Origin: a virus
Length of the DNA stretch: 55,325 nucleotides
Strand: one strand, 5' to 3'
Virus record (IMG/VR): IMGVR_UViG_3300042691_008074
Coordinates: 1-55,325 of that record
The notes beneath the pieces were generated by a model that saw only the letters and a list, made by a program, of their open reading frames with translations, was not told the origin of the DNA and did no database searches. The translations under genes and the position numbers were made by a program. Positions 1-23,655 of the stretch are shown in pieces. Numbering within the stretch: position 1 is the stretch's first letter; each line of letters opens with the position of its first letter.

Positions 1-509
1 CTTCTTTTAGAGGGTTTAAAGTATTCATCTAACTTAGAGTAAATACTCTGATAGTCCACTTCTTTATCTTTCTTTTTAAGATTAACTGTAACAGCATAAT
101 TTGTCTTTTTAATTGGTGTAAGTACTTTTTGACCATCTTTAATTTCTTCTATCTTCATAGAAGTATCCCAAGATTTACATTTCCAATCTTTTACATCCCA
201 TATAGTAGTATCTACTTCAAAGTATTCAATAGCTTCCTCTAAAGAAGTAATAGATTTCTCACCTTTGTATTCAATAACTTTATCGGTTTCACTTTCAGTA
301 ATAATTTTATTATCAGAAAAATTAGATATATTAGTACTATTATCTTTAGCTACTGGTACATAAGCTAATCTTAATTGTTGAACTGATAATGGTGAATTAG
401 TTTTATTTTTATACTCTCTTGCTATTTGTAAATCATTGCATAGTTGTGGGTTAGCTTGTATAAATTCTCTTAAATTATTTATTATTTGCTCATTTAATCT
501 ACTTGGCAT
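1..509 (-). CDS. Conserved phage protein, N-terminal part only (runs off the left edge)
   Basis: The frame opens at an ATG at 507-509 and stays open to position 1, giving about 169 residues with the C-terminus outside the window. The start overlaps the stop of the RNA polymerase gene by 11 bp, so it belongs to the same late operon. Around residues 88-105 there is a pattern of the type SLEEAIEYFEVD, IWDVKDW, KSWDTSMK, followed by a YAVTVNLKKK strand. I know this pattern from phage proteins that continue into a calcineurin-like metallophosphoesterase domain, but that domain would lie beyond the window, so the enzyme assignment is only inferred. No signal peptide is seen. Confidence 0.7.
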   Translation of the reverse strand, partial: MPSRLNEQIINNLREFIQANPQLCNDLQIAREYKNKTNSPLSVQQLRLAYVPVAKDNSTNISNFSDNKIITESETDKVIEYKGEKSITSLEEAIEYFEVDTTIWDVKDWKCKSWDTSMKIEEIKDGQKVLTPIKKTNYAVTVNLKKKDKEVDYQSIYSKLDEYFKPSKR

Positions 510-3500
510 AAAATCTAAGTTGTTCTTCTGGAGTTATAAAATTATAATATGTACCTACTAATGGAACTAATTCCATAGTACTAACTTCAAATTTAGTTAA
601 TCCTTTATATTTACCTCTTTCATATTCATCTGTCCATTGAGTAAAGTTTAATAATCTAAATATCTTTTCTGTTTGATTAACAGCAGCAGCAGGTGATTTT
701 AATACTCTTAATGCTTCTGGTACTGACCAGAAAAACGTCATTTCTGTTATAAATCTATTAGCTTCATAAGCAGCTAAATTAAAAATATAATCTTCATCAT
801 CATCTTCTGCAAGATTTGTCATGGCATTAGCTACAATAGCCATACCAATTAATAATCCTACTTCTGTAAGTGTTCTAAATACATTTTTCTTTTCTATTTC
901 TGATAATTTATTCCAATTTTTAATTAAGTTAAATTGTAAGCTTTTTATATCTTTACCTAATAATCCTACAAATCTTGCAGTAGTATTATAATATCCTTCT
1001 GTCCAAATTTCACCTTCTTCATTATAAGTAAGTTTTTCCCATCTTCTATTCCAACCTGGTTTTATAAATTTACGGAACATAATAGCTAATCTACCTAAAG
1101 CATATTGTTGTATAGCAGATTTATCTACTTCATTATAAATACCGTTTAATCTTTTATTTAACCAATTTTGTCTATTAATTACACGTATAATATCTTTTTG
1201 TGTAAATTCTTCACCTTCCTCACTCTCTTTAAATAAATCAGTACTTTTATCTCCTTTTACCTTAGTAATTCCATTAGGAAATACTAGTTTACCATTTTGT
1301 ACTTCTGCTACTTCCCATAAATTCTTTATATCACCTTCTTTAGTTTTAACTTTTATTCTATTAGCTAAAGCTATTGAAGTAGTAGATTGTAAATAAAATT
1401 CTCCTGCATGGTTAATAAAATATAAACTAGATTCTTTAAATAACCTTTGTACTAATTTACTTTGAGCAGCATTAACATTTCTAAGTATATTATTATAATC
1501 TTGATTAACATCAAAGTATTCATTCCATAAATGTATTTTACTTTCTGATAATCTTTGACCCATATTAGCTATTGCATTAGGTATTTGATTTGTAAATTCC
1601 TTTTCGGCATATAATAAGTCTTTCTTATTAATAGCTTCACCTGCAACAGCTTCTACTAGTTGTTGTGCTTTACCAACTGTAATGTTAGATAAACCAGAAT
1701 ATACGTTTAATGCTAATGAACTTAAAGATGTATATCTATTAAAAGTATCAGCAGCTTTTGATAAATTAATAGTAGTGCCAAATACTTCTAATTCTTCTTT
1801 CTTAGATTGTTGTCCATAATATATCATATTTAGATAATCTTGGAATCTATCATAAGCTTTAGAATTAATACCTTCAATAGTAATTTCTTTATATGGTTTT
1901 TTACCAAATAAAGTTTCTTTACTACTATTAGATAATAAAACTGTAAAATCTAGTTTACCTGTTTTTACTTGTCTTTCACCTATTATATCTTTAGTAAATT
2001 CCATAGTATCAACTAATTTACTTAATTCAGTAAATTTGTATGCACTACTCATAAAAGATATTAAACTATCAACACCTGCTAAAGATAATTGATTCATATC
2101 TTCTTTAGGTAATTTCTTATTATAAAATACTGGTATAAAATTAACTAAATTACCTTTTTCATCTGTTATACCAAATTGTGTATCATTTTCATTTTCTATA
2201 ACTAATTCAGAAAAAGATTTTTTTACATCTTTTAATAGTGAATTTGTATAAGTTTTAGTACCATCACTATTTTCAATAAATAATCTATCGAAAAAGTCTT
2301 TTCTAACTTGTGGCATTAAATTACCTAATTTTTGCTTAGTAGGTAATAAACTATCTACTTTTTCTTTTAAATCAGTATAATCTTTATAAAATTTATATAA
2401 AGCTGGGTTATTTTTGATAGTTTCAAATTGACTTGAACGATATTTATCTGATGGACTTACAAGTTCTTTTATAAATTTAGTTTCTATACTCTCTTCTCCA
2501 CTAACTTCATAAGTTAAATAACTAACAGTATTTTCTGAATACCATTTGTTAAATAATTCAGTTCCTTTATTTTGTCCGTATTGGTTAATAAGTTGTTCTC
2601 TTTTGTTATTAATAAGATTTTCTCTATTAGGATGTGCTTGAGTATTTTCATCAAACCAAATTCTAACTTTAATATCCCATTGTTTAGCTTCATTAATATT
2701 AGTAGGTCTTTTACCTAATTTAGCAAAAAAGTTCTCCTTATTTCTATACCACTCACCATAGTTAAATTCACTAACTATATTACCTGTAAGTTCACCATTA
2801 CTATATCTTTCATATAAAAATGAAACTCCAGATTTCCACTCTTTTTCTAGCTCTTTCTGACTAGCTAATAATTTCTTACCATCTTCAATTAATCTAAATC
2901 TCGCTCTTTGTAATGCTTCTTTAGTCATTACATCTGCAATTTTTAAAATACTATCATTAGCTTCTGCTAAAGAATCTAAGTGTCTTTGCCAAAATGATAT
3001 ATCATTATCTACAAAGTCTAATAACTTATCCCACATATCCCCTGTAATAGAAGTATTCGTGGAGTTAAGTTGTAGTATGTCTTTTAGTATAGGTTTTCCT
3101 ATTGTAAAATATTCATTTTGCAATCTTTTAATATCACCTGCTAGTTTATCTGCTTCTGTAACTAAAGAAGTAAGTTCAGGTGTTTCCTTTTTTAAGGTAG
3201 TAATATCATTTATAGTATCTGCAAAACTATTAACATAAGAATTTACTAATCTTAATGTTTTAATAGTATCATGTTTTTCTTCGATAGTATTCGGATTTGT
3301 ATTTATTTTATTATATCTTTCAGCAACTTTACCTAATTCTTCTTTAGCAGTTTTAATATAATTTGCTATACCAATCTCATAATCTTTTTTCTCTAATTGA
3401 GTTAATAAATCTTGTATTATTTGTTCTCTCTTAGTTCTAAATTCTTCACTACTAGTATCTTGATATTTTTTTAATTGCTTGTGAATACTATTAGCTGCAT

Positions 3501-6500
3501 CTTCTAATGTCTTAACTTTCTTAATAGTTTCATCAGTATTAATTTGATACATTACTCCATTTATTTTAACACCATTATCTTTAGTGTTACCTTTCATAAA
3601 TTGTTTTGCTAATGTATTTGTGATACTTTCAATTTCTTTCTGAATATCTTTATTAAATCTTTGTGATTTAAATAAATTAACTACACGCTCCCAAAATCTT
3701 TTAATTAAAGAAATAAACCTTTCTCCTATTGATTTTTGTGTATCATTAAAATTATCAATTAATGCTTGACCTATTAATTGTCCTATTGCTTCTCTTTTAA
3801 TAAGAGTTTCATTTTCTTTATAAATATTATTGTATTTTTCTTTAACTTCCTTATATATAGGATGTTCAGTTATATTAGCCATTAATGTACTATGAAAAAT
3901 GGTATCTCTATTAAAAGCTTCAATAAAGTGTCCAGCTTCTTCTGGTAATGTATCAAGTTTTTCTTTTCCTTCTACAATATTAATAACCCTATTAGTATAA
4001 TCAGCTAATGCTCTAATACCTAATCTATTAGTAGTATCAGTTATATATTCTATTTTAATACCTAAATTATTTAATTGTTGTTTAATTAAATCATTTAATT
4101 TCTGATTTGCTATTTCATCTTCTTTAATAACTTGTCCGTCATCTATTTGAGCTAAATTATCTTGATTAAATAAACTCTTATCTTTTAAATCGTCTGGTAA
4201 TTTATTTAATTTAATTACACTTTGTTCAGTAAATTCATAAACATTAGAATTACCTTTAGTTTCTATTAAGTCATAATAGAAAGTATTTTCATATCTTCCT
4301 GCATAAGAATAAGTTCTTATTACATTATTATATCTATATTTAAAATATTTTAATTTTACATTACCATCTTCATCTAAATTTGACGCATCTAATTTATCTT
4401 TAGGAATACTAATAGAAGTAATAAATTTTCTATTACCTGATTTTACTACTTTTGTACTTCCAATTTTTTCTCTATTTAATAATGGAGTAAATGATTTTTC
4501 AATACTATGACTATGTAATATTGGTATTAATTCATTAAAATAATTATTATTTTCTGCATTATCTATTAGTTTATATAGATAATCTCTATAAGAAACACCT
4601 TTACTATCTACTAAATTTTCAATGATTTTTGTCGGTATTAAATGACTAAAACCTGTTGGAGTAAAACTAAATTGATTTGTATAGAAACTATATTTAGCTA
4701 AATTATTAGCTAACTTCCTAATTTCTTCATTAGGAGAAACATACATTTCTTCCCATGATTGAGTAATTAATTCTCTTTGCTCATTTGTAATAGAAGCTGA
4801 TGAAGCTATACCTAATCTTTCTATATTACCATCTTTAGCAGGAAATACTTTTATAAAATTTAAAATGTAATAACCTTTATATACAGAATTATCTTTTATA
4901 TTTTTAGCATAAAATTTAGGAAAGTCATTTATAAATTTACTTCTTTCTTCTTCCTTAAACGCATCAAATTTACTAACTACATAATTAACAGTTATGTTAT
5001 TAATAAAATTAATTTCATCTTCTGATAAAGAATCACCTTTATTTTCTTCTAAATTTGTGATTAAATTTCTATAAGCATTTTTACCATAAGGAAAATATTT
5101 TTCTAATAAAACTTGTGGTAAATCAAGACCATATTTTTTTGATACAGCTACTAAGGAGTACTTATTATCTAAATTAAATAATTCTTCTACACCAGTAATC
5201 TTAGTATCTAATAACTTTTGTACTTGATTTTGATAAAAATTATTTGTTGCAATAGTTTTTCCTACACCATTAGTATCTATTTTTGTAGCTGTTGTTAATA
5301 AGCTAACATCAGTAGCTAATTTTTTATATTCTAGAAAACTAAATAAAACTTTAATTTGTGATTCTATTGCATTATCTTCATTAAAATCATTTAATCTATA
5401 ACCTGCTGTTTGTTTTAAATTTTCAGTATTAAAAGAATATATGTTATTTTCAACATTAATTCTTCTTCCTGTTAATAATTTTTGTAGTATTTCTTGTTTT
5501 GCTTTTGTTTCAGCAAACTTAGTTTTACCATATTTATTATATAATCTACTAAGTTCTCTTATTATAGGTTGATTTAAGAAATATATTACAGTATCTAACT
5601 CATAACCTACTCTTGTTAATAACATAGCAGTATTAATTGTGTAGTCATTAAGATTAATTTTACCTGCTACTGGGTCTTTAGCATTATCAACAAATGCTGC
5701 TAAATATTCTGCTATATTTCTTGATATATAATTATTTTTTATAGATTTAACTTTACTTAAATTATTAAATTTTTTACCATCAAATCCTACTGGTTTTGGT
5801 AATTTAATATCAAAATATTGCATAATAGCATGATTACTATTATGATTAGCAGCTATACCAATAAGATTTGCTCCATTGAAGTTACGCATAATCATTGCAA
5901 CTTCATCAGATAATATTAAAGGATTATAATTTTCACTAGCTCCAGACTTAGGTAAAATTTCTTTAGCTAGTTTTGACAATGTATCAAAACCACCTTTATT
6001 TAATACTTGGTCTGACATACTAGGATGTGACCATATTTCTTTAATAATATCTTGTAGATAATTATCTCTCTGTTCTTTTGTTAGTTTAGAAATATCTCTT
6101 GTATTATATTTAATTTTTTTAATTGTACCATTTACAATTTCTGTATTAGGTATCATTAAATATATTTTATCAATATCAAAATCTTCACCGGCAATAGAAG
6201 TAATTTCAGCTGGAAGCATTGCAATACCTCCCATTACATCTGGTGTAAATCCAACAACTTTAATTCTTTTAATAGAATATTTATGTTCAGTAGGAATACG
6301 ATAACCTATTAAATCTAATACATCATCAGATATATCTTCAATTTTAACTTCACCATTTTCATCTCTAGTAAACTTATCTTTACTCCAAGCAGGAAGCATA
6401 GCTTCCATATATTCTACTCCTTTAGTTTTTTCATTATACACAATTCTTAATGAATCACTTAAACCAACACTTGCTGTTAATACTAAACTAGCACCATTCA

Positions 6501-9500
6501 TCTTTTGTTTAGTAACTCTATTACGAACCATAGAGTTCATTAAATTTTGCATACGTCTAGTTAATAAACTATCGTATAGAGGTAAATTAAAAACTTTATT
6601 ACCTTTAGCATCTTTCTTAATTTCTAATGCTCTCTCAAATTCAACTCCAAGATTTCTATTTCTAACTTCTTGTAATAGTACTGATTGTAAATTTTCTATT
6701 GTACCAAATTCTTGTTCTAATTCATTATAAGAATCAATTATATTATACTTTAATAATTCATTATAAGTTTCAACTATTGAATTTCTATCTAACTTACCAT
6801 CAAAAAATTTAGCATCTAAAGGTATATCTGCAATAGCTAATTTCTTTAATTGAGTTCCAAATAATACTTCTGTATCAACGTGTTTTGAAGGTACTTCAAC
6901 TTGAATACCGTAATACTTATTTAAGAAGTTATGAACTACTGCATCATTAATTTTATCAATTGATGTTGTTCCCCATTCTCCTGCTTTAACACTTGAGTTA
7001 AATTGAACACTATCAACTTCTTGTAATTTATTATATATACTAGCTAATTCAGGTGAAATATATTTACCATCTTTTTTAGCTAAAGCTAATTGTGGTAACA
7101 ATACTACTTCACTGTTTTTATTTTGTACTGGTATATATAAATCTCCTATTATTTCATGGTCAAAGTAAAAAGGTTTTACTGGTTGAAAAAATATACTTAA
7201 TTCTTCATTAGTTAAAGATTCTTCATTTTTAACTTTATTATATACATTTTCAAAATTTTGATTCCACTCACCTAATCCTATTTTAATCTTCTTAAATCTA
7301 TCTAACGATATAAATGTTTGAGCATCAGTATGATTTGTATTTGCTAAAGCATCTTTTGCAATTTTAGCTTGTTCATCTGAATATCCTCTTTCTTTTAATA
7401 AATTATAAACGCTATTAGATAATTTGGAATTAATTTCAATATCTTTTAAATATATAGTACTATAATGTGTTCCTACATTATATCCATTCCAACTTGCACT
7501 ATCATCTATTCTTTTTGTAAATTTAAATATTTGACCGTTACGTTTTTGAAATAAATCATAGTTCTTATAAAAAGCAAAATCTACTGATGTTAGTTGTATC
7601 ATCATAGCTTTTGCTAACATATTATTAGGTATAAATTGTCCTAAAAATTGTCTAGCACTACCAGCTCTACTAGCTAAAGCATCACCAAAACTACCATCTT
7701 CTCTAATAACTCCTGCTTCTTTAAATTTAAAGAACTCGTTTTCAATAACACTTTCTAAGTAATCATTTATAAATTTTTTAGTTTCTACTGGATTATTTAT
7801 ACTTCCAGTATAAAAATTCATTACATCTAAAAATTGATATTTTAATCCTTGTGTATCATAATTTTTAACTCCTGTTTTATTATTACTTACTAATTCAATT
7901 CTTTTCTTTTCAGCTAAGACTAAATTATATAAAGCATCTAGTATTTGTTCTCTTTCATATTTTTTAAATGTAATATAAGGAGCTTGTGTTGAATCAGATA
8001 AAATTGGAACTCTATATCTTGCAAGTTTCTGTGAACCGTTGTTATAAAAAGCATTTATATCAGCATAATATATATCACCTTCAACTAAATCATCAAATTT
8101 AGTTCCTGTTGAATCATTATTATATTTTATACTATCAAATAAAGCAACATTAAATTGTTCTACTAAATCAGTATTACCCTCATCATTTAACTCATTTAAC
8201 CATAAGTTATTTTCAAACCACCAATTATTAAGGTAAGATTGTCTTATTATAGGGTCTTTAAACTCTGATAACTTCTTTGTTAAGAAAGTAGGCATAGTAT
8301 AACTATATACTGATTTACCTTCACCATTGATAAAACTATCTTGTACTAAATTAGGTGAACGTCTAGCTACTCTTCTAGTAACATAATCTACTGCAAAACT
8401 TTCTTTATTATCACCAGTAAAAGGATTATTACCTTGAGTTATAGCTAATAATATGGTTTCTATTGATGTACCTGAACCATATAGTAATTTAGCAAGACTT
8501 TGAAAAGGAGTTAATTTAATACCTGATAAAGTTCTTGAAACAGAATATTCATTTAATAAAACATTAGGTTCAATAATAATACCAAAAGCCTTTAAAGAAG
8601 AAGAAATTTTAGTTGCTAATTCAGGTGTAATATCTTTCTCACTTTTAAATTCTTCAACTAAATTTCTATATTGTTCATAAGCCTTTAATGCTTTCTCTTT
8701 ATCAATATTATTATCAGCATCAGTAACACTATTTCTAAAATTATTAGTTAAATTGTAAAACCATTCATCAGATAATAATCTTTTTAAGTTAGTTCTATTA
8801 CTAGGAAATACTACATTTCTTGTAACTTTAATACTTTCACCACTCATATCTGAATATTCAATAAATTGTTGAACATTAAAATAGTCATAGTATTCTTTTA
8901 CAAAAGACGTAAACATTTGAGTTGCTAAAGTATCATCTTCTTCTAGCATATCTCTAATAATAGTATATTCAGGCTTAATTAAAACTTCCTCTGATAGTCT
9001 ATCTATCATTTCTTGTTTGGTTTCTGAACCTGCTAATATTGACATTAACTCATTTGACACTTCATCAAATGGTAAAAATTGACTCATACCTAACCATGAA
9101 TCAGGTACATTCTCCATATTAGAATTAATAAGAGGTATTCTTCTTAACATCTTCTTAACTCTATATGAAATATTATCTTTAGGATTCTTAAATACTTGGT
9201 CTAATTGCCAACTTTCAAATATTCTTTTTTCTTCATCTATGTCATCACCTAACTCGTCTTGAATATCTTGCTTTTCAGGTGTTACCTCATTAAAGTCTAG
9301 TTTAAAATCTTTTGATACTTTAGTCATTATACCAAACTTAGATAAGTCTGCTAATGCTCTAAAATATAAATCACCAGGAATTAAATTATCATTAACTACA
9401 TTATATAAGTTTGTAGCTGTAATATCTAATCTATTAGCCTTTTCAGGATTAGTACCTTTAATTTTATCTGATGTAGCTATAAATGTATAATATATACTTT

Positions 9501-9927
9501 CATATATACTATTAATAACATCAACTGGTTTACCTAGTTTCTTTAATAACTCAATATCATCTAAATCCTGATAATCAGGATTAGATTGTCTATAATTATC
9601 TAATTGTTCAAAGAAATAATAATTTATGACATTTACAGAACTTTTAACTTGATAAGGGGTCATATTAGATACTGACCTAACTGCATTATCATTATAAGTT
9701 TCAGAACTAATCTCTTTTGATTCTGTAACGTTTATTGTTTCTACACCTGCTTGTTTATAAATACTTAATAATTCATTTTTTAAACTTTCTTGTAGTGAAT
9801 TAATTACTTTTAATTCTGCCTCTTCAACTGGAACACCACTATCTATTAATTGAGTTACTTGTCTTACAATATAATTTTGTTCGGCTTCACTGAAAGAAGT
9901 CTTTAATAAGCAATTAGCTATTTTCAT
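499..9927 (-). CDS. Giant virion DNA-dependent RNA polymerase fused to a degenerate zincin-like domain and a C-terminal ejection-protein-like region
   Basis: This 3142-residue protein carries the crAss-like virion RNA polymerase signature DFDID at residues 1249-1253. It sits in a GEDFDIDKIYLM context preceded by GYRIPTEHKYSIKRIKVVGF, which matches the second double-psi beta-barrel of YonO/phi14:2-type single-subunit polymerases; the three Asp bind catalytic magnesium. Such polymerases are packaged and injected to transcribe early genes. At 1996-2000 there is EEAGH in the position where the neighbouring 1495-residue protein has HEAFH, followed by a helical segment resembling that protein's zincin tail. 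The C-terminal third is helical with a KPGWNRRWEK-type motif and one hydrophobic segment at about 3024-3040. It is larger than stand-alone crAss polymerases, consistent with a fusion. It overlaps the small upstream gene by 14 bp. The polymerase call is firm; the protease-like part is probably inactive. Confidence 0.93.
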   Translation of the reverse strand: MKIANCLLKTSFSEAEQNYIVRQVTQLIDSGVPVEEAELKVINSLQESLKNELLSIYKQAGVETINVTESKEISSETYNDNAVRSVSNMTPYQVKSSVNVINYYFFEQLDNYRQSNPDYQDLDDIELLKKLGKPVDVINSIYESIYYTFIATSDKIKGTNPEKANRLDITATNLYNVVNDNLIPGDLYFRALADLSKFGIMTKVSKDFKLDFNEVTPEKQDIQDELGDDIDEEKRIFESWQLDQVFKNPKDNISYRVKKMLRRIPLINSNMENVPDSWLGMSQFLPFDEVSNELMSILAGSETKQEMIDRLSEEVLIKPEYTIIRDMLEEDDTLATQMFTSFVKEYYDYFNVQQFIEYSDMSGESIKVTRNVVFPSNRTNLKRLLSDEWFYNLTNNFRNSVTDADNNIDKEKALKAYEQYRNLVEEFKSEKDITPELATKISSSLKAFGIIIEPNVLLNEYSVSRTLSGIKLTPFQSLAKLLYGSGTSIETILLAITQGNNPFTGDNKESFAVDYVTRRVARRSPNLVQDSFINGEGKSVYSYTMPTFLTKKLSEFKDPIIRQSYLNNWWFENNLWLNELNDEGNTDLVEQFNVALFDSIKYNNDSTGTKFDDLVEGDIYYADINAFYNNGSQKLARYRVPILSDSTQAPYITFKKYEREQILDALYNLVLAEKKRIELVSNNKTGVKNYDTQGLKYQFLDVMNFYTGSINNPVETKKFINDYLESVIENEFFKFKEAGVIREDGSFGDALASRAGSARQFLGQFIPNNMLAKAMMIQLTSVDFAFYKNYDLFQKRNGQIFKFTKRIDDSASWNGYNVGTHYSTIYLKDIEINSKLSNSVYNLLKERGYSDEQAKIAKDALANTNHTDAQTFISLDRFKKIKIGLGEWNQNFENVYNKVKNEESLTNEELSIFFQPVKPFYFDHEIIGDLYIPVQNKNSEVVLLPQLALAKKDGKYISPELASIYNKLQEVDSVQFNSSVKAGEWGTTSIDKINDAVVHNFLNKYYGIQVEVPSKHVDTEVLFGTQLKKLAIADIPLDAKFFDGKLDRNSIVETYNELLKYNIIDSYNELEQEFGTIENLQSVLLQEVRNRNLGVEFERALEIKKDAKGNKVFNLPLYDSLLTRRMQNLMNSMVRNRVTKQKMNGASLVLTASVGLSDSLRIVYNEKTKGVEYMEAMLPAWSKDKFTRDENGEVKIEDISDDVLDLIGYRIPTEHKYSIKRIKVVGFTPDVMGGIAMLPAEITSIAGEDFDIDKIYLMIPNTEIVNGTIKKIKYNTRDISKLTKEQRDNYLQDIIKEIWSHPSMSDQVLNKGGFDTLSKLAKEILPKSGASENYNPLILSDEVAMIMRNFNGANLIGIAANHNSNHAIMQYFDIKLPKPVGFDGKKFNNLSKVKSIKNNYISRNIAEYLAAFVDNAKDPVAGKINLNDYTINTAMLLTRVGYELDTVIYFLNQPIIRELSRLYNKYGKTKFAETKAKQEILQKLLTGRRINVENNIYSFNTENLKQTAGYRLNDFNEDNAIESQIKVLFSFLEYKKLATDVSLLTTATKIDTNGVGKTIATNNFYQNQVQKLLDTKITGVEELFNLDNKYSLVAVSKKYGLDLPQVLLEKYFPYGKNAYRNLITNLEENKGDSLSEDEINFINNITVNYVVSKFDAFKEEERSKFINDFPKFYAKNIKDNSVYKGYYILNFIKVFPAKDGNIERLGIASSASITNEQRELITQSWEEMYVSPNEEIRKLANNLAKYSFYTNQFSFTPTGFSHLIPTKIIENLVDSKGVSYRDYLYKLIDNAENNNYFNELIPILHSHSIEKSFTPLLNREKIGSTKVVKSGNRKFITSISIPKDKLDASNLDEDGNVKLKYFKYRYNNVIRTYSYAGRYENTFYYDLIETKGNSNVYEFTEQSVIKLNKLPDDLKDKSLFNQDNLAQIDDGQVIKEDEIANQKLNDLIKQQLNNLGIKIEYITDTTNRLGIRALADYTNRVINIVEGKEKLDTLPEEAGHFIEAFNRDTIFHSTLMANITEHPIYKEVKEKYNNIYKENETLIKREAIGQLIGQALIDNFNDTQKSIGERFISLIKRFWERVVNLFKSQRFNKDIQKEIESITNTLAKQFMKGNTKDNGVKINGVMYQINTDETIKKVKTLEDAANSIHKQLKKYQDTSSEEFRTKREQIIQDLLTQLEKKDYEIGIANYIKTAKEELGKVAERYNKINTNPNTIEEKHDTIKTLRLVNSYVNSFADTINDITTLKKETPELTSLVTEADKLAGDIKRLQNEYFTIGKPILKDILQLNSTNTSITGDMWDKLLDFVDNDISFWQRHLDSLAEANDSILKIADVMTKEALQRARFRLIEDGKKLLASQKELEKEWKSGVSFLYERYSNGELTGNIVSEFNYGEWYRNKENFFAKLGKRPTNINEAKQWDIKVRIWFDENTQAHPNRENLINNKREQLINQYGQNKGTELFNKWYSENTVSYLTYEVSGEESIETKFIKELVSPSDKYRSSQFETIKNNPALYKFYKDYTDLKEKVDSLLPTKQKLGNLMPQVRKDFFDRLFIENSDGTKTYTNSLLKDVKKSFSELVIENENDTQFGITDEKGNLVNFIPVFYNKKLPKEDMNQLSLAGVDSLISFMSSAYKFTELSKLVDTMEFTKDIIGERQVKTGKLDFTVLLSNSSKETLFGKKPYKEITIEGINSKAYDRFQDYLNMIYYGQQSKKEELEVFGTTINLSKAADTFNRYTSLSSLALNVYSGLSNITVGKAQQLVEAVAGEAINKKDLLYAEKEFTNQIPNAIANMGQRLSESKIHLWNEYFDVNQDYNNILRNVNAAQSKLVQRLFKESSLYFINHAGEFYLQSTTSIALANRIKVKTKEGDIKNLWEVAEVQNGKLVFPNGITKVKGDKSTDLFKESEEGEEFTQKDIIRVINRQNWLNKRLNGIYNEVDKSAIQQYALGRLAIMFRKFIKPGWNRRWEKLTYNEEGEIWTEGYYNTTARFVGLLGKDIKSLQFNLIKNWNKLSEIEKKNVFRTLTEVGLLIGMAIVANAMTNLAEDDDEDYIFNLAAYEANRFITEMTFFWSVPEALRVLKSPAAAVNQTEKIFRLLNFTQWTDEYERGKYKGLTKFEVSTMELVPLVGTYYNFITPEEQLRFYAK

Positions 9928-10141
9928 ATAAGAACTGATTAAGTATTATGATTAATTTATCTTTAACCTCATCTTGAGGAACATTATTCTCTCTTAATTC
10001 AGATAAACCTATTACTATATTAGATTTATTCTTTTTAGTTTGTGGTATTACAACTGGTTTAATTCTAAGATAACCTCTTGTAGCAACACTAAGAGGGTTG
10101 CTTAAATAACCCCTTGTCGCAATATATAAAGGTTTACTCAT
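9914..10141 (-). CDS. Small phage protein with a duplicated ATRGYL motif
   Basis: A 75-residue protein whose N-terminus is built from two near-identical 12-residue units, PLYIATRGYLSN (residues 4-15) and PLSVATRGYLRI (16-27). A short helical C-terminal part follows, ending in LIIILNQFLYENS. The ATRGYL repeat is common in small proteins next to phage tail and fibre genes; no function is established to my knowledge. The gene sits between the fibre module and the RNA polymerase gene, overlapping the latter by 14 bp, so the two are probably translationally coupled. There is no membrane segment or signal peptide. A structural or assembly role is a guess from position. Confidence 0.75.
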   Translation of the reverse strand: MSKPLYIATRGYLSNPLSVATRGYLRIKPVVIPQTKKNKSNIVIGLSELRENNVPQDEVKDKLIIILNQFLYENS

Positions 10142-15113: not shown

Positions 15114-18100
15114 TTAAGACAATTTAGTACAATTTAATAAATTTTCTAATAATTTGCTCTGCTTTTTTATATCAACAATAGCATCTTTAATAGGTAATTC
15201 ATTTTGGAAAGTTTCACCTGTTTCAGCATCAATTTGAGTAATTGTAATATTATTAGATATATCTGGATTTAAATTACTAGCAGATAGATTAAGTAAATCC
15301 TCTGTATCAAATTGATTAACTGGAATTTGTTTTGTTTTAACAATATTATTAATTATTGGAATTACTACTTGTGTATTTTTAAATTTACCAATATTAATTC
15401 TTTCAAACAATTTATCAATAGTAATTTTATTATTAAATAATGATACAATACTATCTAATAATCTTTTAAAAAAATTAAGTATTTTATTAGGTAAACTTCT
15501 ATTAGATTTAGACATATAATCAGCAAAATCATCCGCTAATTGTTCTTCTAATTCTAAATCAGTTAGTACTTTACCATTTATATTATAAAGTTGTTTAGCT
15601 TCATTTAATATATCTGTTTTTTCTTTTTCAGTTAGATATAAATTAAATACAGCATGAAAGGCTTCGTGAAATTCAGTACCTACTGGAGCATATTTATATA
15701 ATGTAATTCCAGCATTACTAAAAGTTCCCCATGCTTTTGCTCCCCCTTTTTTTGCTATATTAATTACATCATTGACCCAAATAACATCAACATTAAGATT
15801 ATCTTTTAACCATCTATTAGCTTTTTCTACATCTATTGGAGTTGTTACTTCACCATTAACTAATTTAGTTAATTCTCCAAAAAAATCTGTTGCATTTATT
15901 ACAGTCTTTTTGCCTATATTTGCAACTTGTTCTTCAAATGATACTTGTTTACCAAAAGTAATATCTAAGTCATCTGATGGTTGTGGTTTAAGTTCTTTAC
16001 CTATAACTTCTTGAGCATTATCATTAAAAAAATCATTAGCACTAACTATCTGCTTAGATGGTGTAGAACCCTCTAAGAAAGATTGCATAGATGGTATTAC
16101 TTTACCAACGTTTCTTTTAACTTGTGGTGTAGGTAATGTATTATTCTGTTGCTTAGTTTGTGGAACAGCAATTTTAGTTTGTGTAATTTCAGGTTTAGGA
16201 TATGAAATAGGTTCTATCTCTATTGTCGTAGAATGAAAATGTTCAACTGGATTTAAATCAGTTGATAAATAACCTTTCTTCATTACCTCAACGTTATAAT
16301 TACCTTTGTTAATTTTATCGTAATTAACTTGAGCAATTAGAGTTCCAATATCTTCTAATGGTATCTTTGTACCATCTGCTTTTACTAGAATTACTTCATT
16401 ATCTTTCTTAATTATATCTTTAACATACACATAATCTTTCAAATCAGATAATACCTTCTTTAAAGGCATATTACTAGTTCTAAAATCAAATATTATATCT
16501 AATGCAGCTTGTTTAACTTCTGGCAATTCTTCTAATTTCTTTGTAAATAATTTATGTGGTATATAGTTTTCATTATTAGGTTCAAGTATAGCCATATAAA
16601 CTTGACCTTCATCTGCTTCATTACCACCAGACCATAAAGTTAAATCTTGTGCAGGGTGTCCATTAAACAGTAAAGATAATTTACCATTAATTCTCTTAGT
16701 TATTCCTAATATTGGTTTTTTACCTTGTTCTAATACATCTAATGGATTTTTATATTCACTATTTTGCAATATATGTCCTGCTATTACTTTTTTAATTTTA
16801 CTAGTTTTATTAAATGTAAAATTACTTGTCCTAGCAAATCCACCATTACTTAGTAAATCATTAAATAATTGTTGTCTAAAAGTACCTAAATTATACTTAT
16901 CTAGTTCATTAAATTTTGAATTAACAGAAGGTAATACACCAACTACAATTCTATTATTAGAACTTTTGTTTAAAGGATTTTTATCTAAGTAAACTACTTC
17001 TTCAATCAAAACTCTTTGTGGTGTTTGATTTTCTTTAATTATATTAAATTCATTGGGAGAATATTCAAAATAAATAGTATCACCTTTTTTAACTAATCCC
17101 TTATTTAAAGCAGACCAATTAATTAATTTTGAACTAGTAAATTCACTAGGTTTACCTAAATTAAATTGTGTAACTCCATTAACTTTTACAATAGCACCAT
17201 TTTCATCTCTTAAAAAATCATATTGTGGAGTACTAGAAGTCCATGTAGTATCAATTATTTTTTTAGTCTCTGATTGTGGTGTATTACTATTATTATCGTT
17301 TACTTTTGGTTTAGTAGCTTCTTTATTTGGTACTTCTAATACTTTAAAATAATTATCAACTGCTTTCTTTAATTTTTCATTTTCTTTATATGCTTTTTCT
17401 AATCTTTCCTGAAATGGTATATTAGCATCAGTTTCTTGAACTCCACCATTCTGTATCATTAATACTTCTAAATCTCCTTGTTCTTCATCAGAAAGTATTT
17501 CACTTTTCCATCTATCATTTAAGGATTGAGTAATATTATTAGGATTAAAATTTGTACTTTTATCTTTTAATGATTTTAAAACTTCTGATTTCTTTTTATT
17601 AAATTCTTCTTGCGCTCCTAATTCATTAGAAATTTTTTGTATTTCTTTTAATTCTTGTAATGTAGAGTTTTCATTAAGTCCTTCTACTATTTGTTCTTTC
17701 TGTGATTTCTCTGCTTCTTTTCTATATTTCTCAATTTCTTTCTTAACTTCTTTAACACCTTCTTTAGTATTATATTTATTAAAGTCAGAATCACTTTGTC
17801 TAATATTAATATCAGCTATTAAATTAGGAAATTTAATTGATGCTAAATTAGATACATTAATTTTATCTAATTTAGTAAAATCATAATTAGGACTATTAGT
17901 TTTAAGAGTATCTTTTAATAAATTTTGTTTTTCTTCTAACTCCTTTCTTTTATTTTCTAATACATCAGTAGAATAAATATTAAGTTCATTTTTAAATGAT
18001 GGTTCATTTAAAAAAGCTAATTCTAATTGTGTATTTAATAATAGTGTTTCAGTAGGGTCAAGTTTATTTCCTTCTTGTACTTCTTGTAAAGTAGCTGAAA

Positions 18101-19601
18101 CTAATTTATCTGTATTAGTATAAAGTTCTTTATGGTCAAGATTTTTTAATCTATTAATAACAACCATACCCAATATTTCTGGGTCATAATTTTTAGATTG
18201 ATTATTAACAATATTTTCAACTACTTCTAATCTTTGTAATCCTTTATTAGCTTTATTAATAATTTCGGCATTTTCTTCTTTACCACCGGCATTTTCTAAT
18301 ATAGCTTCATACATATTTTTTAATGATAAAGCATTACCACTTGTAGAAGCATTTATAGCCATTACATCTAATACTTCATTAGATGTATGATTGAATTTGT
18401 TTATATCATTTTGAAATACAGCTAAAGATTGTTTATAATTATCAACTTCTAATTGTATTTTTTGTATTCTATTTTGTTCATCTTTACTACTTAATGCACT
18501 ACCTATACCTTCAAAAATAACACCACCACCGAAACCAAAAACCATTGAAGTCCATAGATTTTTATCAGTACCATATCTTAATAGTCTTTGACCATAAGTA
18601 GAATAATCATCTTTCTCAATACCTGCTTTTATTTTAGCGGCTCTACTTGATTCTTCACCAATTACAAATTGGAAACCTTCTTCTCCTGCTTCTGATGTTC
18701 CTTGTAATAAATATTTTTGTATAGTACCTAATGTACCTTTCTTTTTTGCTTGGTCAAGTATTTCATCTTTTGCTCTTGATAATTTACTAAATGATTTACT
18801 TGCCATACTAAATTGCATAACATCCATCATTAATAAACTCCAATTAGAAGTATATGTATCTTGTGCTGCTTTTAAACCAGCAGCTTTAGCAGCATCTTCA
18901 CTAAAACCTTTACTAATTGCTTCTTCAAAAACTCTATCATATTGTTCTTTACCCTCCATTATACCTTCCATCTGTCTTGAAATTATAGCAGATGAAATAG
19001 GTTCTGCAACAGTACCTATGTTTTTTAGTATTCCTGCATTTTTAGCTAATCTAGCACCACCTAAAGTTTTTGCTAATATACCTAAACCTCTAGTAGCACC
19101 CATAGCAGGTATCATTAATGATACTGCTGTACCTAAACTTGGTATATTTTGAAATACCCATTCACTAAATCTTTGATTATCTTGTTGACTATATATAGGA
19201 ACTATTTCTTGTTGAAATTGTTCATTAACAGTTCTAGCCCAATCAGATAACTGATTACCAAATTGTTCTTCATTATTAGTTACTTTATCATATATAAAAT
19301 CAGGTGTATCTAATAAATATCCAACACCTTCTACTGTACCAAGTAATATTTCTGATAATAATTGTGCAGAACTATTAGCTGCTTCTGACCATGCTCCTTG
19401 AAATGCAGCTTTAGTTTTAGTAGGGTCACTTTCACTACTTAAATTTGATAAGTATTTTGAATCACCAAAACCTGCACCACTAAGTCCAGTATAAGGACTT
19501 ATATTTTTCATAACATCTTCAATACCTAAACTTTTATTAGAAGTTTTAGGAGTATATTTTGGTGTTGGGTCTGTATTTAATACGTCAGCTAAACCTGCCA
19601 T
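15114..19601 (-). CDS. Large internal virion protein with a C-terminal zincin metallopeptidase domain
   Basis: A 1495-residue protein placed after the muzzle and two other large proteins, where Crassvirales encode packaged 'cargo' proteins that are ejected with the DNA. The N-terminal 400 residues have a GLSGAGFGDSKY element and Gly/Ala-rich amphipathic stretches (IPSLGTAVSLMIPAMGATRGLG) of the sort seen in membrane-acting ejection proteins. The middle is a long charged coiled-coil region. The C-terminus has a complete zincin motif, HEAFH at 1312-1316 within TEFHEAFHAVF. A LEEQLADDFADYM segment about 40 residues later probably gives the third ligand, followed by FFKRLLDSIVSLF. Likely roles are cleaving virion or host proteins during maturation or entry. 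The start codon overlaps the upstream gene's stop (ATGA-type). Confidence 0.85.
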   Translation of the reverse strand: MAGLADVLNTDPTPKYTPKTSNKSLGIEDVMKNISPYTGLSGAGFGDSKYLSNLSSESDPTKTKAAFQGAWSEAANSSAQLLSEILLGTVEGVGYLLDTPDFIYDKVTNNEEQFGNQLSDWARTVNEQFQQEIVPIYSQQDNQRFSEWVFQNIPSLGTAVSLMIPAMGATRGLGILAKTLGGARLAKNAGILKNIGTVAEPISSAIISRQMEGIMEGKEQYDRVFEEAISKGFSEDAAKAAGLKAAQDTYTSNWSLLMMDVMQFSMASKSFSKLSRAKDEILDQAKKKGTLGTIQKYLLQGTSEAGEEGFQFVIGEESSRAAKIKAGIEKDDYSTYGQRLLRYGTDKNLWTSMVFGFGGGVIFEGIGSALSSKDEQNRIQKIQLEVDNYKQSLAVFQNDINKFNHTSNEVLDVMAINASTSGNALSLKNMYEAILENAGGKEENAEIINKANKGLQRLEVVENIVNNQSKNYDPEILGMVVINRLKNLDHKELYTNTDKLVSATLQEVQEGNKLDPTETLLLNTQLELAFLNEPSFKNELNIYSTDVLENKRKELEEKQNLLKDTLKTNSPNYDFTKLDKINVSNLASIKFPNLIADINIRQSDSDFNKYNTKEGVKEVKKEIEKYRKEAEKSQKEQIVEGLNENSTLQELKEIQKISNELGAQEEFNKKKSEVLKSLKDKSTNFNPNNITQSLNDRWKSEILSDEEQGDLEVLMIQNGGVQETDANIPFQERLEKAYKENEKLKKAVDNYFKVLEVPNKEATKPKVNDNNSNTPQSETKKIIDTTWTSSTPQYDFLRDENGAIVKVNGVTQFNLGKPSEFTSSKLINWSALNKGLVKKGDTIYFEYSPNEFNIIKENQTPQRVLIEEVVYLDKNPLNKSSNNRIVVGVLPSVNSKFNELDKYNLGTFRQQLFNDLLSNGGFARTSNFTFNKTSKIKKVIAGHILQNSEYKNPLDVLEQGKKPILGITKRINGKLSLLFNGHPAQDLTLWSGGNEADEGQVYMAILEPNNENYIPHKLFTKKLEELPEVKQAALDIIFDFRTSNMPLKKVLSDLKDYVYVKDIIKKDNEVILVKADGTKIPLEDIGTLIAQVNYDKINKGNYNVEVMKKGYLSTDLNPVEHFHSTTIEIEPISYPKPEITQTKIAVPQTKQQNNTLPTPQVKRNVGKVIPSMQSFLEGSTPSKQIVSANDFFNDNAQEVIGKELKPQPSDDLDITFGKQVSFEEQVANIGKKTVINATDFFGELTKLVNGEVTTPIDVEKANRWLKDNLNVDVIWVNDVINIAKKGGAKAWGTFSNAGITLYKYAPVGTEFHEAFHAVFNLYLTEKEKTDILNEAKQLYNINGKVLTDLELEEQLADDFADYMSKSNRSLPNKILNFFKRLLDSIVSLFNNKITIDKLFERINIGKFKNTQVVIPIINNIVKTKQIPVNQFDTEDLLNLSASNLNPDISNNITITQIDAETGETFQNELPIKDAIVDIKKQSKLLENLLNCTKLS

Positions 19602-21649
19602 TATCTTGAACTTTTATTACCTAAGAATCTTGCTGCTTCTGATTTACCAAAAGTAGTTAACATATAATCTTGAAATTCATCTAATGCCCAAGTATTACCA
19701 ACATTACCATCACTCTTAATCTCACTAACTGTTGTAAAAAACTGTGGTTGTCCTTCTGGTAAACCAGTTGGACTATTTCTAACTAATAGATTAACATTAT
19801 TACCAACATTAACTTTACCTCCTTGACTATTTAAAGATAATTTACCAACTTGTTGAATTATATTTAAAACTGGAACTTGGTCTTGGTCTGTAAGTGAAGC
19901 AACTAGATTTAATTGTCTAGTTCCTTTATCTGGATGTGAAATAGTCATAGTCATACTAGTACCAGGAGCATCCATTAAAGGATTAACTTTTAATATACCA
20001 TTTTCTACTAAACTTTTAATCTCCCAACCATTATCACCAACTGCTTTTAATATACTATTTATATCAGTTGAACCACCATCTTCTTGAAATCCTTGTTGAA
20101 CTATATCATTAATTTCTTTATCCTTATTAGCAACCGCTATTGACCTACCTTGTAAACCATTAGCAATAACTCCTGTATCTGTAATAGCAGAACCACCTAA
20201 TAATTTATAATCTGTTACATTTTTCTTTAACCATTGAGAAGTAGATACTTGAACATTATTTTTAACAGAATTTTTATATCTATTAAAGAATTGATTCTTA
20301 TATTCAATAGGTATTTTTCCTTTAGCTAACATATCACTAGCATAATTTAGCTGTTGTGCAGGAGTTAAGTTTTCATAATCTGTATGTAAACTACCTAACA
20401 ATGCTCTACCTTGTGGTGAAATAGTTAAATCTTGTAACAATAAATCATTAGCAATAGTTTGATTTTGTTTTACAACTTTATTTAATTCATCTTTAGATAA
20501 AGGAATTTTATCAACAAGATTTCTAATATTTATACCAGAAGTCATATTACCGAATGTTCCTTTAAATTGGTCATTAAACAATTGTTTACCTTTATTTATA
20601 TCTAATTGATTGCCATTTTTATCTACATATTTATAGTAAGTTCCATTTGTGTATTCATACATTTGTGTACTAGCATTAACAGTACCATCAGGTTTTAACT
20701 CCATACCTTCTAAAGCATCTTTATTAAAGATATTTTTTGTAATAGAACTAGGAGCAGAGTTAGGATTTTGAACGTATTGATTTAATCCTAATCTTTCAAA
20801 AACATAATCAGGTAAGAAATCGCTATTTTCTTTTATATTATTAAAATATGCAGCTTCTGTTGTAGATAATAAAGCATTATCTAATTCTGATTCAAATCTA
20901 CCAGGTCTAAGTTGAGCTTGTGTATTATAATAATCTTTAACTTTAGGATTAGACATTAAATATCTTTGTCCTGCCATTTTCATAATATCTTGTCCACTAT
21001 AGTATTTACCTCCAATAGTAGCACCTTTTTGTGCTTCTTCCCAAGTTATAGTTTTAATTAATCCAGTATTATTATCAATAATTTGTCTTGAACCACCATC
21101 TGCTTTCCAACCCTTATAATAATCAGATAATTCTTTATTTAACTCTACATCATCAGAAGGTGAGAAACCTCTAAACAAAGAGGTTGTATCATTTGGATTA
21201 TCTAATGATAGACCTTGATAACCATCAACTGATTTTCTTAAAGCATCGTTATAAGTTGTTTGACTAATTTTACCTTGTTTTAATCTTTCATCTAGTTCTT
21301 TCTTATAACTATCATATAATGCTTTATTTTGTAATAAAGGCTGTGCTTTACTACTAAAATTTCTAGCAGTATTCTTAATACCTCTTAAAGCATTTTCATA
21401 ATCACCATTTTTTGCTCTACTACTAATATCTTGTCTAGCTTCATCCATTAGTTGCATTGCATAAATTCTATCATTCTGAAATGGAGTTATAGAATTAGAA
21501 AATGTATCAACTTGTTGGGATAGTATATCATCAGCTTCTATGGCTGTATTATAAAGATTTAAGCGACTACCTATGGCATCGCTTAATTCCTTATTTGCTG
21601 AACCTATATATGGTGCAGAATACGGTGTAAAATTAATTTGTCCTAACAT
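19601..21649 (-). CDS. Large internal/structural virion protein (cargo candidate)
   Basis: 682 residues, mostly helical and hydrophilic, starting MLGQINFTPYSAPYIGSANKELSDAIGSRLN. Its N-terminal third resembles a coiled-coil bundle (QNDRIYAMQLMDEARQD, ALRGIKNTARNF). No enzyme motif, signal peptide or membrane segment is visible. It overlaps both neighbours by one base and is flanked by two other large candidate ejection proteins, the usual place of crAss-like cargo proteins. I do not recognise a specific named family, so the call is from position and composition. Confidence 0.65.
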   Translation of the reverse strand: MLGQINFTPYSAPYIGSANKELSDAIGSRLNLYNTAIEADDILSQQVDTFSNSITPFQNDRIYAMQLMDEARQDISSRAKNGDYENALRGIKNTARNFSSKAQPLLQNKALYDSYKKELDERLKQGKISQTTYNDALRKSVDGYQGLSLDNPNDTTSLFRGFSPSDDVELNKELSDYYKGWKADGGSRQIIDNNTGLIKTITWEEAQKGATIGGKYYSGQDIMKMAGQRYLMSNPKVKDYYNTQAQLRPGRFESELDNALLSTTEAAYFNNIKENSDFLPDYVFERLGLNQYVQNPNSAPSSITKNIFNKDALEGMELKPDGTVNASTQMYEYTNGTYYKYVDKNGNQLDINKGKQLFNDQFKGTFGNMTSGINIRNLVDKIPLSKDELNKVVKQNQTIANDLLLQDLTISPQGRALLGSLHTDYENLTPAQQLNYASDMLAKGKIPIEYKNQFFNRYKNSVKNNVQVSTSQWLKKNVTDYKLLGGSAITDTGVIANGLQGRSIAVANKDKEINDIVQQGFQEDGGSTDINSILKAVGDNGWEIKSLVENGILKVNPLMDAPGTSMTMTISHPDKGTRQLNLVASLTDQDQVPVLNIIQQVGKLSLNSQGGKVNVGNNVNLLVRNSPTGLPEGQPQFFTTVSEIKSDGNVGNTWALDEFQDYMLTTFGKSEAARFLGNKSSR

Positions 21650-23655
21650 TATCTATTGAAATATTTACGCATCCATTCTGGCATTTGTTCAAATAATCTA
21701 GTATCTACTCCAGTATTACCTGCTTGTGAAGATACTAACCATGATTTAGCTAAATCTAGCTTTCTCATTTCATTACTTGTATAATTACCCATTAAACCTT
21801 TTATGGTATTATCTATATTTTGTTGTTTTAATCCAGTCTTTTGATTTCTATTAATCATTGATTGAGTTAAAGCATTATTTCGGATTTGCGTATTTGCAGC
21901 ATTAGTTTGCTGTAATTGATTATTAAAATTAGCATCAATAGCATCTTTACGTGATATTTCACTATCATATGCTTGATTCATTTGATTAAGAGTTTGAGCA
22001 TATAAGCTACCTCTTAATCCTGCATTATATTGTTGTGAACCTGTTTTAACTGCATTATTTGCATCTCTAAATGCAGATAAATACATATTTCTTAGACCAG
22101 GAACTCTACTTGTATAATTATATCTTGGTCCAGCAACTTCTGTATATGGAACTTCTGTTTCCATTTTATTAATAAATCTATTATTAATAAGTTGTCCTGC
22201 TATTGGCATTAAATTATTAAGACCTGACAACAAACTATCAGGATTAAAATTAAACTTTGATGCACTTGGAGTAGCATTTTGAAATGGTGCATCCATAACT
22301 CCACCATCATTAAAAGATTTCTTTTTCCATTCAGCACCACCAACTGAATATGAACCTCCTTTACCAGGACCATCTCCTGCATATCCAGATTTTTGTGGTT
22401 CTCTTACCCACTTAAATCTGTCCATTTTACCTACAAAAGTATCAAGTTCTGGTGATTCAAATTCAGGAACTTCAATAGTTAATGCTTCACCTCTTTTAGC
22501 TACACCTGATGTATATCTTGGACCATCAACTAATCCTTTAGTATCATATTCACCAAACTTTAACTTTCTTAATGCAGGAGCATTATTAAATTCTTTTATT
22601 GCACTTTGTCTAGCAGGAGTTTCAGTTCTTAATAAAGGATTTTTCATACTCTCTGTAAAGTGCATATTATTAACAACTTCTTGATAATCTTTATTTGTAA
22701 CGTCAAATGCAGTAATAGCATTTGCTGCATTTGGATTACTCATTAATCTAGCTAAACCTTCATTCTCTAAACTATACAATAATTCAGGTCTTGATGGGTC
22801 AAATTTATTAGTTCTATTAAACTTATTGTATAAGTAATTAGGTTTAGTTTCTGATTCTACTCTATCAACAGTTGGGTCAATTACAAATTTCTTACCTACT
22901 AATGGAGTAGATGATTTAAATTTACCACCATCTCTATATTGACCAAATTTAAATTTCATTTTACTTTCTTCTTGTATGTTAAATAAAGACTCCAATTTAT
23001 TATCATATTTAATACTCATTAATTTAGCAGTAGTAGCTTTAGTTTGATTAGGTGAATTTAAATCACTATCATATTTTCCTTTTTTTCTACCTAGTTCTTC
23101 TGCTAATTCAGCATAAGTTTTACTAGAGCCTTTAGGTTTTAAAGAATCTGAATAAACTTTATCTTCTTTAATTACTTCTGCATCTTCAATTTCAGCATTA
23201 TTAGGTAGTAATATACCACCTTGTTCATGTGTTCTTCCGTCATATAATGTAACTCCATCAGCTAATGGTATTGCTCTGCCACCTTTTATTGGTGACATAT
23301 AACCACCAAAATTAAATCTACCACCATATTTGGCTTCAACTATTCCTTGTGATGGATAACCTGCTAATACTCCTTGTGAGTTACTAATTATATTTTGATA
23401 ATTTCTTGCTCTTATTTGTTCTTGAAGTTTACGTTCTTCATCTTTACGTTTTTTAGCACCAAAGAATCCTGCTGCACCACCAATAACACCACCAGCTAAA
23501 GCACCCCAAGGACCTAGAGCCATACCAATAGATGCACCTTGTAAAGCACCACTAGCAGTACCACCACCAATACTATCTTGTGGTATAAAACTATTAATTA
23601 TAGGTGCTGCTTGTTGAGCAATACCTGCATAACTACTTAGTGGTAATCCTGCCAT
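21649..23655 (-). CDS. Glycine-zipper internal virion protein (cargo/ejection candidate)
   Basis: 668 residues. Residues about 29-67 form a Gly/Ala-rich hydrophobic zipper (GGTASGALQGASIGMALG, GALAGGVIGGAAGFFGAKK) followed directly by a basic helix KKRKDEERKLQEQIR, a pattern typical of phage proteins that insert in membranes during DNA ejection. Next comes a KYGGRFNFGGYMSPIKGG and HEQGGILLPNNAEIEDAEVI block, a module seen in Bacteroidetes phage virion proteins. The C-terminal third is Gln/Asn-rich and helical. The gene directly follows the muzzle gene, the position of the first cargo protein in phiCrAss001-like genomes. Confidence 0.75.
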   Translation of the reverse strand: MAGLPLSSYAGIAQQAAPIINSFIPQDSIGGGTASGALQGASIGMALGPWGALAGGVIGGAAGFFGAKKRKDEERKLQEQIRARNYQNIISNSQGVLAGYPSQGIVEAKYGGRFNFGGYMSPIKGGRAIPLADGVTLYDGRTHEQGGILLPNNAEIEDAEVIKEDKVYSDSLKPKGSSKTYAELAEELGRKKGKYDSDLNSPNQTKATTAKLMSIKYDNKLESLFNIQEESKMKFKFGQYRDGGKFKSSTPLVGKKFVIDPTVDRVESETKPNYLYNKFNRTNKFDPSRPELLYSLENEGLARLMSNPNAANAITAFDVTNKDYQEVVNNMHFTESMKNPLLRTETPARQSAIKEFNNAPALRKLKFGEYDTKGLVDGPRYTSGVAKRGEALTIEVPEFESPELDTFVGKMDRFKWVREPQKSGYAGDGPGKGGSYSVGGAEWKKKSFNDGGVMDAPFQNATPSASKFNFNPDSLLSGLNNLMPIAGQLINNRFINKMETEVPYTEVAGPRYNYTSRVPGLRNMYLSAFRDANNAVKTGSQQYNAGLRGSLYAQTLNQMNQAYDSEISRKDAIDANFNNQLQQTNAANTQIRNNALTQSMINRNQKTGLKQQNIDNTIKGLMGNYTSNEMRKLDLAKSWLVSSQAGNTGVDTRLFEQMPEWMRKYFNR

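Follow-up and report, generated by a model that had tools for sequence, protein, structure and literature searches.

Why would a phage place its virion RNA polymerase (RNAP) and a second virion protein in one frame? The question is raised by IMG/VR record IMGVR_UViG_3300042691_008074, a virus record of 55,325 bases that was analysed over its whole length and is called the window here. At 499..9927 on the minus strand, where its own parts and the cargo genes given below also lie, a single frame with an ATG start stays open over 3142 codons; the plus-strand reading of the same interval is full of stops and was rejected. Guided by BLASTP, we read this gene with considerable confidence as an in-frame fusion of a gp50-type virion RNAP and a gp49-type virion protein, in which gp49 would be carried and ejected with the polymerase and would keep a zincin domain that does not cut.

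Which phage carries the gene? Its TerL, major capsid protein and RNAP are roughly 25-35% identical to those of Crassvirales, with best matches scattered over different families. Because the best matches of different genes fall in different families, we regard the phage as a deep-branching crassvirus. The whole 3142-aa protein found no significant match in Pfam or PHROGs, and a scan of viral contigs queried with the single sequence recovered no relative; an alignment was needed as query. A scan of bacterial genomes matched only two contigs.

Two virion proteins in one chain

The N-terminal module, residues ~170-1900 (4228..9420), matches the gp50 profile and, by phmmer, the solved RNAP 6VR4 (E=1.2e-25), which is gp66 (g066) of Cellulophaga phage phi14:2. 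BLASTP against crAss001, cr128_1, bajarodcaudo virus 1 and Dulem virus 41 assigns residues ~160-1797 to gp50, and the hidden Markov model match extends to ~1900. The DFDID catalytic metal-binding motif lies at residues 1249-1253 (6169..6183), within the conserved core as aligned with 18 relatives, and its three Asp residues are invariant in 19 diverse gp50 sequences. A sequence-only reading of this DNA had placed the motif correctly; it did not give the strand. By homology, residues ~170-1900 are the Crassvirales virion RNAP (crAss001 gp50, phi14:2 gp66).

What follows the polymerase? Residues 1929/1941-3140 align with whole, separate gp49 genes of the same four phages at 27-30% identity over ~1270 positions (BLASTP, E 1e-119 to 1e-148). 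In those phages gp49 is a gene of its own, next to gp50 and on the same strand; in the window it shares the frame of gp50. These alignments identify residues ~1930-3142 as the RNAP-associated virion protein gp49 (phi14:2 g065) over its full length. The sequence-only reading had proposed that the downstream part is a second protein, and this holds. It had named as its refutation C-terminal parts common to all Crassvirales polymerases and unlike separate proteins; instead, most relatives, crAss001, cr128_1 and phi14:2 among them, have a gp49 gene of its own. Its picture of a polymerase joined to a zincin relative and an ejection-like end stands for the fusion and for the degenerate zincin, and falls for the number of sources: since gp49 of the relatives already includes both the zincin-like domain and the helical end, the zincin-like domain is the N-terminal part of gp49 and not a third fusion partner.

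The fusion border lies at residues ~1901-1930 (4138..4227), between the end of the gp50 profile at ~1900 and the start of the gp49 profile at ~1931; the profile search behind these positions numbers the frame 6 residues higher. The beginning of a model of residues 1915-2125 is poorly ordered there, with a predicted local distance difference test (pLDDT) score of 59-70. Could the frame be an assembly or sequencing artefact in which a stop between two genes was missed? The gene is known from a single fragment, and its nearest relative, locus L098 (37% identity across the helical part), has gp50 and gp49 split. Against this, more than a stop is missing: the fused gene lacks the first ~160 residues of crAss001 gp49 and ~540 N-terminal residues present in L098, where they hold an HExxH zincin (TALHEILHSIS at 163), and there is no Met within residues 1781-1960. 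Comparable fusions have also arisen independently elsewhere, and we consider an artefact very improbable.

A zincin-like domain with an exchanged ligand

The gp49 module opens with a zincin-like domain, residues ~1931-2109 (3601..4137), recognised by profile match and AlphaFold2. The degenerate zincin relative of the sequence-only reading is present. In place of xxHExxH the chain has LPEEAGH at residues 1994-2000 (3928..3948; LPEEAGHF to residue 2001), as read from the sequence and its alignments, so that EEAGH occupies 1996-2000 where HExxH would stand and Glu 1996 replaces the first zinc-ligand His. The counterpart of the third ligand is kept: Glu 2046 (3790..3792) sits on the helix following the active-site helix and lies outside the pattern used for searching.

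How general is the exchange? Among 28 gp49 modules with identities as low as 17%, the L, P, E, E and H of the motif and the downstream Glu are invariant. EExxH occurs in 81/82 distinct domains with a readable motif, a count biased by one locus scan that used LPEE[FA][AG]H as its pattern. That scan was repeated with C-terminal patterns only, and wherever the domain is recognised in loci found by C-terminal patterns or by tblastn, it almost always has EE. The motif is lost in cr111_1, and two loci, L117 (GHEFGH) and L120 (IHEYAH), have HExxH in the same column of a residue-for-residue alignment. Glu 1997, His 2000 and Glu 2046 do not vary across 76 aligned sequences, in which position 1996 is Glu or, rarely, His.

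Descent from zincins is supported by comparison with gp47, the other RNAP-associated cargo protein. The EExxH domain profile matches the gp47 zincin profile with P 3e-5 (4e-6 in reverse order, 4e-4 with the motif masked), and none of the negative and reversed controls was better than 3e-3, most lying near 1e-2. An AlphaFold2 model of residues 1915-2125 from the 76 sequences has a mean pLDDT of 80.5, with most of the core at about 90-96; the zincin part had been poor (pLDDT 45-60) in a 1198-residue model, which the separate 76-sequence model solved. Its order of a helix, strands, the active-site helix (1993-2005) and a helix bearing Glu 2046 fits the zincin topology. Most of the top-ranked Foldseek matches in the PDB are to zincins (selecase, IrrE, jannalysin, MATCAP), all non-significant at E 0.3-3, and a Pfam search with the 76 zincin-like domains and gp49 proteins gave no coherent family. 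We conclude that the domain is a zincin by descent in which the first ligand His became Glu and the remainder was kept.

Is it still an enzyme? With its first zinc-binding His replaced by Glu, self-cleavage is unlikely, and the domain probably does not work as a conventional protease; most likely it would serve for binding or structure, or have an altered metal site. An active metalloenzyme with Glu-His-Glu ligands replacing His-His-Glu would fit the invariance of Glu 1997, His 2000 and Glu 2046 and the restriction of position 1996 to Glu or, rarely, His. A structural or binding role could also explain such strict conservation, part of which was selected by the search pattern, and no known zincin with these ligands was found in this analysis; we think an active enzyme unlikely.

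The helical end

The rest of the module, residues 2110-3142 (502..3600), is a large helical part, delimited by the full-length gp49 alignment. A model of residues 1945-3142 is nearly all helical (mean pLDDT 70.8). Among the viral structure models of gp49 proteins that it matches are those of phi14:2 g065 (E 4e-36) and, from Cellulophaga phage phi17:2, a structural protein (E 5e-19). Near its end, residues 3015-3041 (805..885) form a helix in the model and are the most hydrophobic stretch of the whole chain (Kyte-Doolittle 1.48 over 19 residues). In 27 of 28 homologues hydropathy likewise peaks at this aligned position, and we take the hydrophobic helix, on this comparison, to be a real conserved feature; the sequence-only reading had noted a hydrophobic segment here, at 3024-3040. 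Hydropathy across the homologues is 1.1-2.0, values that fit a membrane helix and a buried one alike.

How often has the fusion arisen?

Annotated phages and scans with the gp49 alignment supplied the loci, of which only those showing both modules in intact frames were counted (n=80 distinct). The two modules are separate in 68/80 loci and share one open reading frame in 12/80. The separate cases divide evenly between loci with gp50 and gp49 each on its own (34/80) and loci with gp47 fused to gp50 and gp49 separate (34/80). Among the joined ones, gp50-gp49 forms a single frame in 4/80, the window gene included, and gp47-gp50-gp49 a single chain of up to ~4800 aa in 8/80. Contig ends cut some of these loci, and gp47 fusions may be undercounted.

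A tree built on the helical part of gp49 places the window gene with split relatives, apart from the fusions at L020, L075 and L108. Forcing the four gp50-gp49 fusions together costs 59 log-likelihood units (approximately unbiased test, p=0.0003); the four were chosen by gene arrangement and not by tree position, and long branches are a caveat. The Intestiviridae fusions are too diverged to be placed. On this tree, the fusion in the window has an origin separate from those of the three other sampled gp50-gp49 fusions. The principle is already known, since crAssphage LMMB (MT006214) carries a fused gene annotated 'RNAP catalytic subunit/RNAP subunit fusion protein'. The window gene adds a new and independent example to an already known type of fusion, and the joining of polymerase and gp49 recurs in evolution.

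What does gp49 do?

The relatives suggest how such a chain would work. It would be packed in the head, exit through the tail ahead of the DNA, then refold in the host and transcribe early genes. Less certainly, gp49 may be a carried, ejected module that accompanies the polymerase and is tied to it when fused, although its role as a carrier is speculative. What might be gained by fusing the two? A fixed 1:1 ratio and co-delivery are conceivable benefits. The zincin domain, which keeps its fold, the catalytic Glu, the second His and the Glu of the third ligand but not the first His, would most likely contribute structure, binding or an altered metal site, with no cutting of the chain.

Is gp49 simply part of the polymerase? 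It might be a real subunit or regulator, for example an inhibitor, a promoter-binding part or a nascent-RNA part, in which case fusion would covalently join a complex. It adjoins gp50 in nearly all relatives, is fused to it in several lineages and is called an RNA-polymerase subunit in public records; moreover, the C-terminal domain of the virion RNAP of phage N4 inhibits its own RNAP (PMC12633501). What speaks against a subunit is Cellulophaga phage phi17:2. This phage, which is not filed under Crassvirales, encodes a clear gp49 homologue (locus L094, 12230-17977; profile E 7e-40) with the EExxH motif DLTEETSHF, and a profile search of its whole 145-kb record detected no crassvirus RNAP core and no T7-type RNAP. 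The crassvirus RNAP profile used there recovers phi14:2, itself a row of the profile, at E 6e-157 and the diverged cr108_1, which was not a row, at E 7e-66. That gp49 occurs where no RNAP is detected weighs against its being nothing more than a polymerase subunit, and we rate the subunit as a real possibility, though somewhat short of an even chance. More tentatively still, gp49 may be a general injected carrier of Bacteroidota phages and no polymerase subunit, to which the crassvirus polymerase was attached several times. Together with N4, two unrelated polymerases would then have been independently joined to the same kind of zincin-plus-helical carrier, with the first zincin ligand exchanged in crassviruses.

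Could the chain be a polyprotein that is packaged or ejected in one piece and cut afterwards near residues 1901-1930? The sequence-only reading had suggested that cleavage into functional pieces might follow entry, and the poorly ordered border would suit it. With the in-chain zincin missing its first ligand in nearly all relatives, cutting could, speculatively, come about only in trans, through the gp47 homologue. That gene, encoded within the same gene block (15114..19601, 1495 aa; BLASTP to three gp47 proteins, E 1e-13 to 1e-24), retains an intact C-terminal zincin with HEAFH at residues 1312-1316 (15654..15668), as read from its sequence. Zincins have been proposed to process polyvalent phage proteins, and P1 DdrB is cut before packaging; however, the comparable N4 chain is packaged unprocessed despite an intact in-chain zincin (PMC5512222). 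The gp47 zincin is also degenerate (YWEAFRR) in a lineage where gp47, gp50 and gp49 form a single chain. We judge cleavage less likely even than an active EExxH enzyme.

Returning to a carried gp49 with a non-cutting zincin, several points count against it. A diverged RNAP could have been missed in phi17:2, or its RNAP could have been lost secondarily, and gp49 could be a true polymerase subunit after all. In the phi14:2 polymerase structure, gp50 alone reportedly folds as a polymerase, which by itself assigns no role to gp49. The phage of the window is known from sequence alone, as one metagenomic fragment, and no close relative was found that independently confirms the fused frame. The gp49 module model gave no PDB match with E below 0.4 and no similarity to solved ejection proteins; as the helical part matched no solved structure, such structures support neither the carrier role nor the ejection-protein character proposed by the sequence-only reading.

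What is gained is a testable identity for gp49 in a virus group that is very abundant: it is a separate module whose zincin domain is conserved but altered, and in one phage it occurs with no RNAP detected. In the literature searched, which covered few subscription papers, we found no description of the conserved EExxH, of gp49 without RNAP or of zincin homology with N4, and novelty is not established.

Neighbouring genes and other observations

Two further cargo genes lie beyond the gp47 homologue. The frame at 21649..23655 is a probable homologue of gp45 (cargo protein C1), with a weak BLASTP match to the portal-bound domain of crAss001 gp45 (426-557, E=0.002). The frame at 19601..21649 is a possible homologue of gp46 (cargo protein C2), judged mainly by gene position (BLASTP E=0.05 only). 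In a number of loci (L016, L017, L018, L083 and L032, L036, L064, L070, among others) the gp47 zincin has degenerated, and it has done so along two lines: it reads WEAFR in lineages where gp47, gp50 and gp49 are one chain, and HEAFE, with the second ligand His changed to Glu, in one group with gp47 and gp50 fused.

Upstream of the RNAP gene, between it and a gene at 10145-10693, lies a terminator-like hairpin on the minus strand at 10094-10113. Within the fused gene, promoter-like sites are no more frequent than in shuffled sequence, and repeats are short and diverged.

Elsewhere, several genomes (L003 15611-16497, L008 6048-6881, L010 5734-6610) have the RNAP gene interrupted at one common profile position near DxDxD, which marks a site of repeated insertion beside the catalytic motif. 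In L003 an annotated endonuclease lies between the RNAP parts, and cr108_1 is split at the same profile position. In L009, L023, L092 and L097 the RNAP and gp49 frames are broken into numerous pieces by in-frame stops under table 11, which fits the stop-codon recoding known for some crassviruses. The metagenome-assembled genome of a Methanoflexus archaeon includes one crassvirus-like contig (L155, JAISIT010000128.1), most likely through a binning error.

Comparison with N4 and other known systems

How does the chain compare with the virion RNAP of N4? That ejected protein consists of a T7-type RNAP, an HExxH zincin (C1) and a ~1100-residue helical domain without known fold (C2), and its C-terminal domain dampens transcription (PMC12633501); DEV has a related N4-type (Schitoviridae) virion polymerase (see also PMC10925440). 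Intact crassvirus cargo zincins, from gp47 and the N-terminal parts of some gp49, match N4 C1 with profile P 8e-14 (4e-9 with HExxH masked; negatives near 1e-2), having been chosen by the HExxH pattern. When gp47 zincins are chosen by profile, P is 1.6e-6 (0.002 with the motif masked). On these profiles, the intact crassvirus cargo zincins are homologous to the N4 C1 zincin, and N4 ejection structures can therefore guide crassvirus experiments. The EExxH domain itself showed no relation to the N4 zincin (P 0.07). Homology of the gp49 helical part to N4 C2 was rejected (hhalign P 0.8 with both profiles), and N4 vRNAP is not among the PDB matches listed for the gp49 model, though its entries occur in the PDB sequence set. 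The fused chain is built like that of N4 but, since neither part shows a relation, is not a member of the N4 family; the N4-type zincin occurs in other crassvirus cargo proteins and not in this chain. N4 and DEV share with it the plan of a ~3,500-residue chain ordered as RNAP, zincin-type domain and ~1,000-residue helical domain; theirs is ejected, as the fused chain presumably is. They differ in their T7-type polymerase, where the window gene has the DFDID type, in their intact HExxH and in a helical domain that is not detectably related.

Among crassviruses, crAssphage LMMB (Intestiviridae) and crAss002 gp33 likewise join RNAP and RNAP-associated protein in one giant chain, which adjoins a separate RNAP-associated protein/zincin fusion; their chains are about 4070-4245 aa long, with a strongly diverged gp49 part that the window matches only over its last ~240-400 residues. 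In crAss001 (Kehishuvirus primarius) the same two modules are adjacent in the same order and gp49 has LPEEFAHF, but they are two genes and gp49 has ~160 extra N-terminal residues; crAss001 gp47, gp49 and gp50 have been found in virions (PMC10172136). Phage phi14:2 also has both proteins, by profiles g066 as the gp50 counterpart and g065 as the gp49 counterpart, each annotated as a virion protein from tandem mass spectrometry; its genes are separate, and g065 has HEIMH and no recognisable EExxH domain. Polyvalent proteins with zincin-like MPTase domains (Iyer et al. 2017, PMC5512222) resemble the fused gene as multidomain injected proteins with a zincin-like domain beside an enzyme; unlike them, the fused gene has EExxH for HExxH and no other recognised effector domain.

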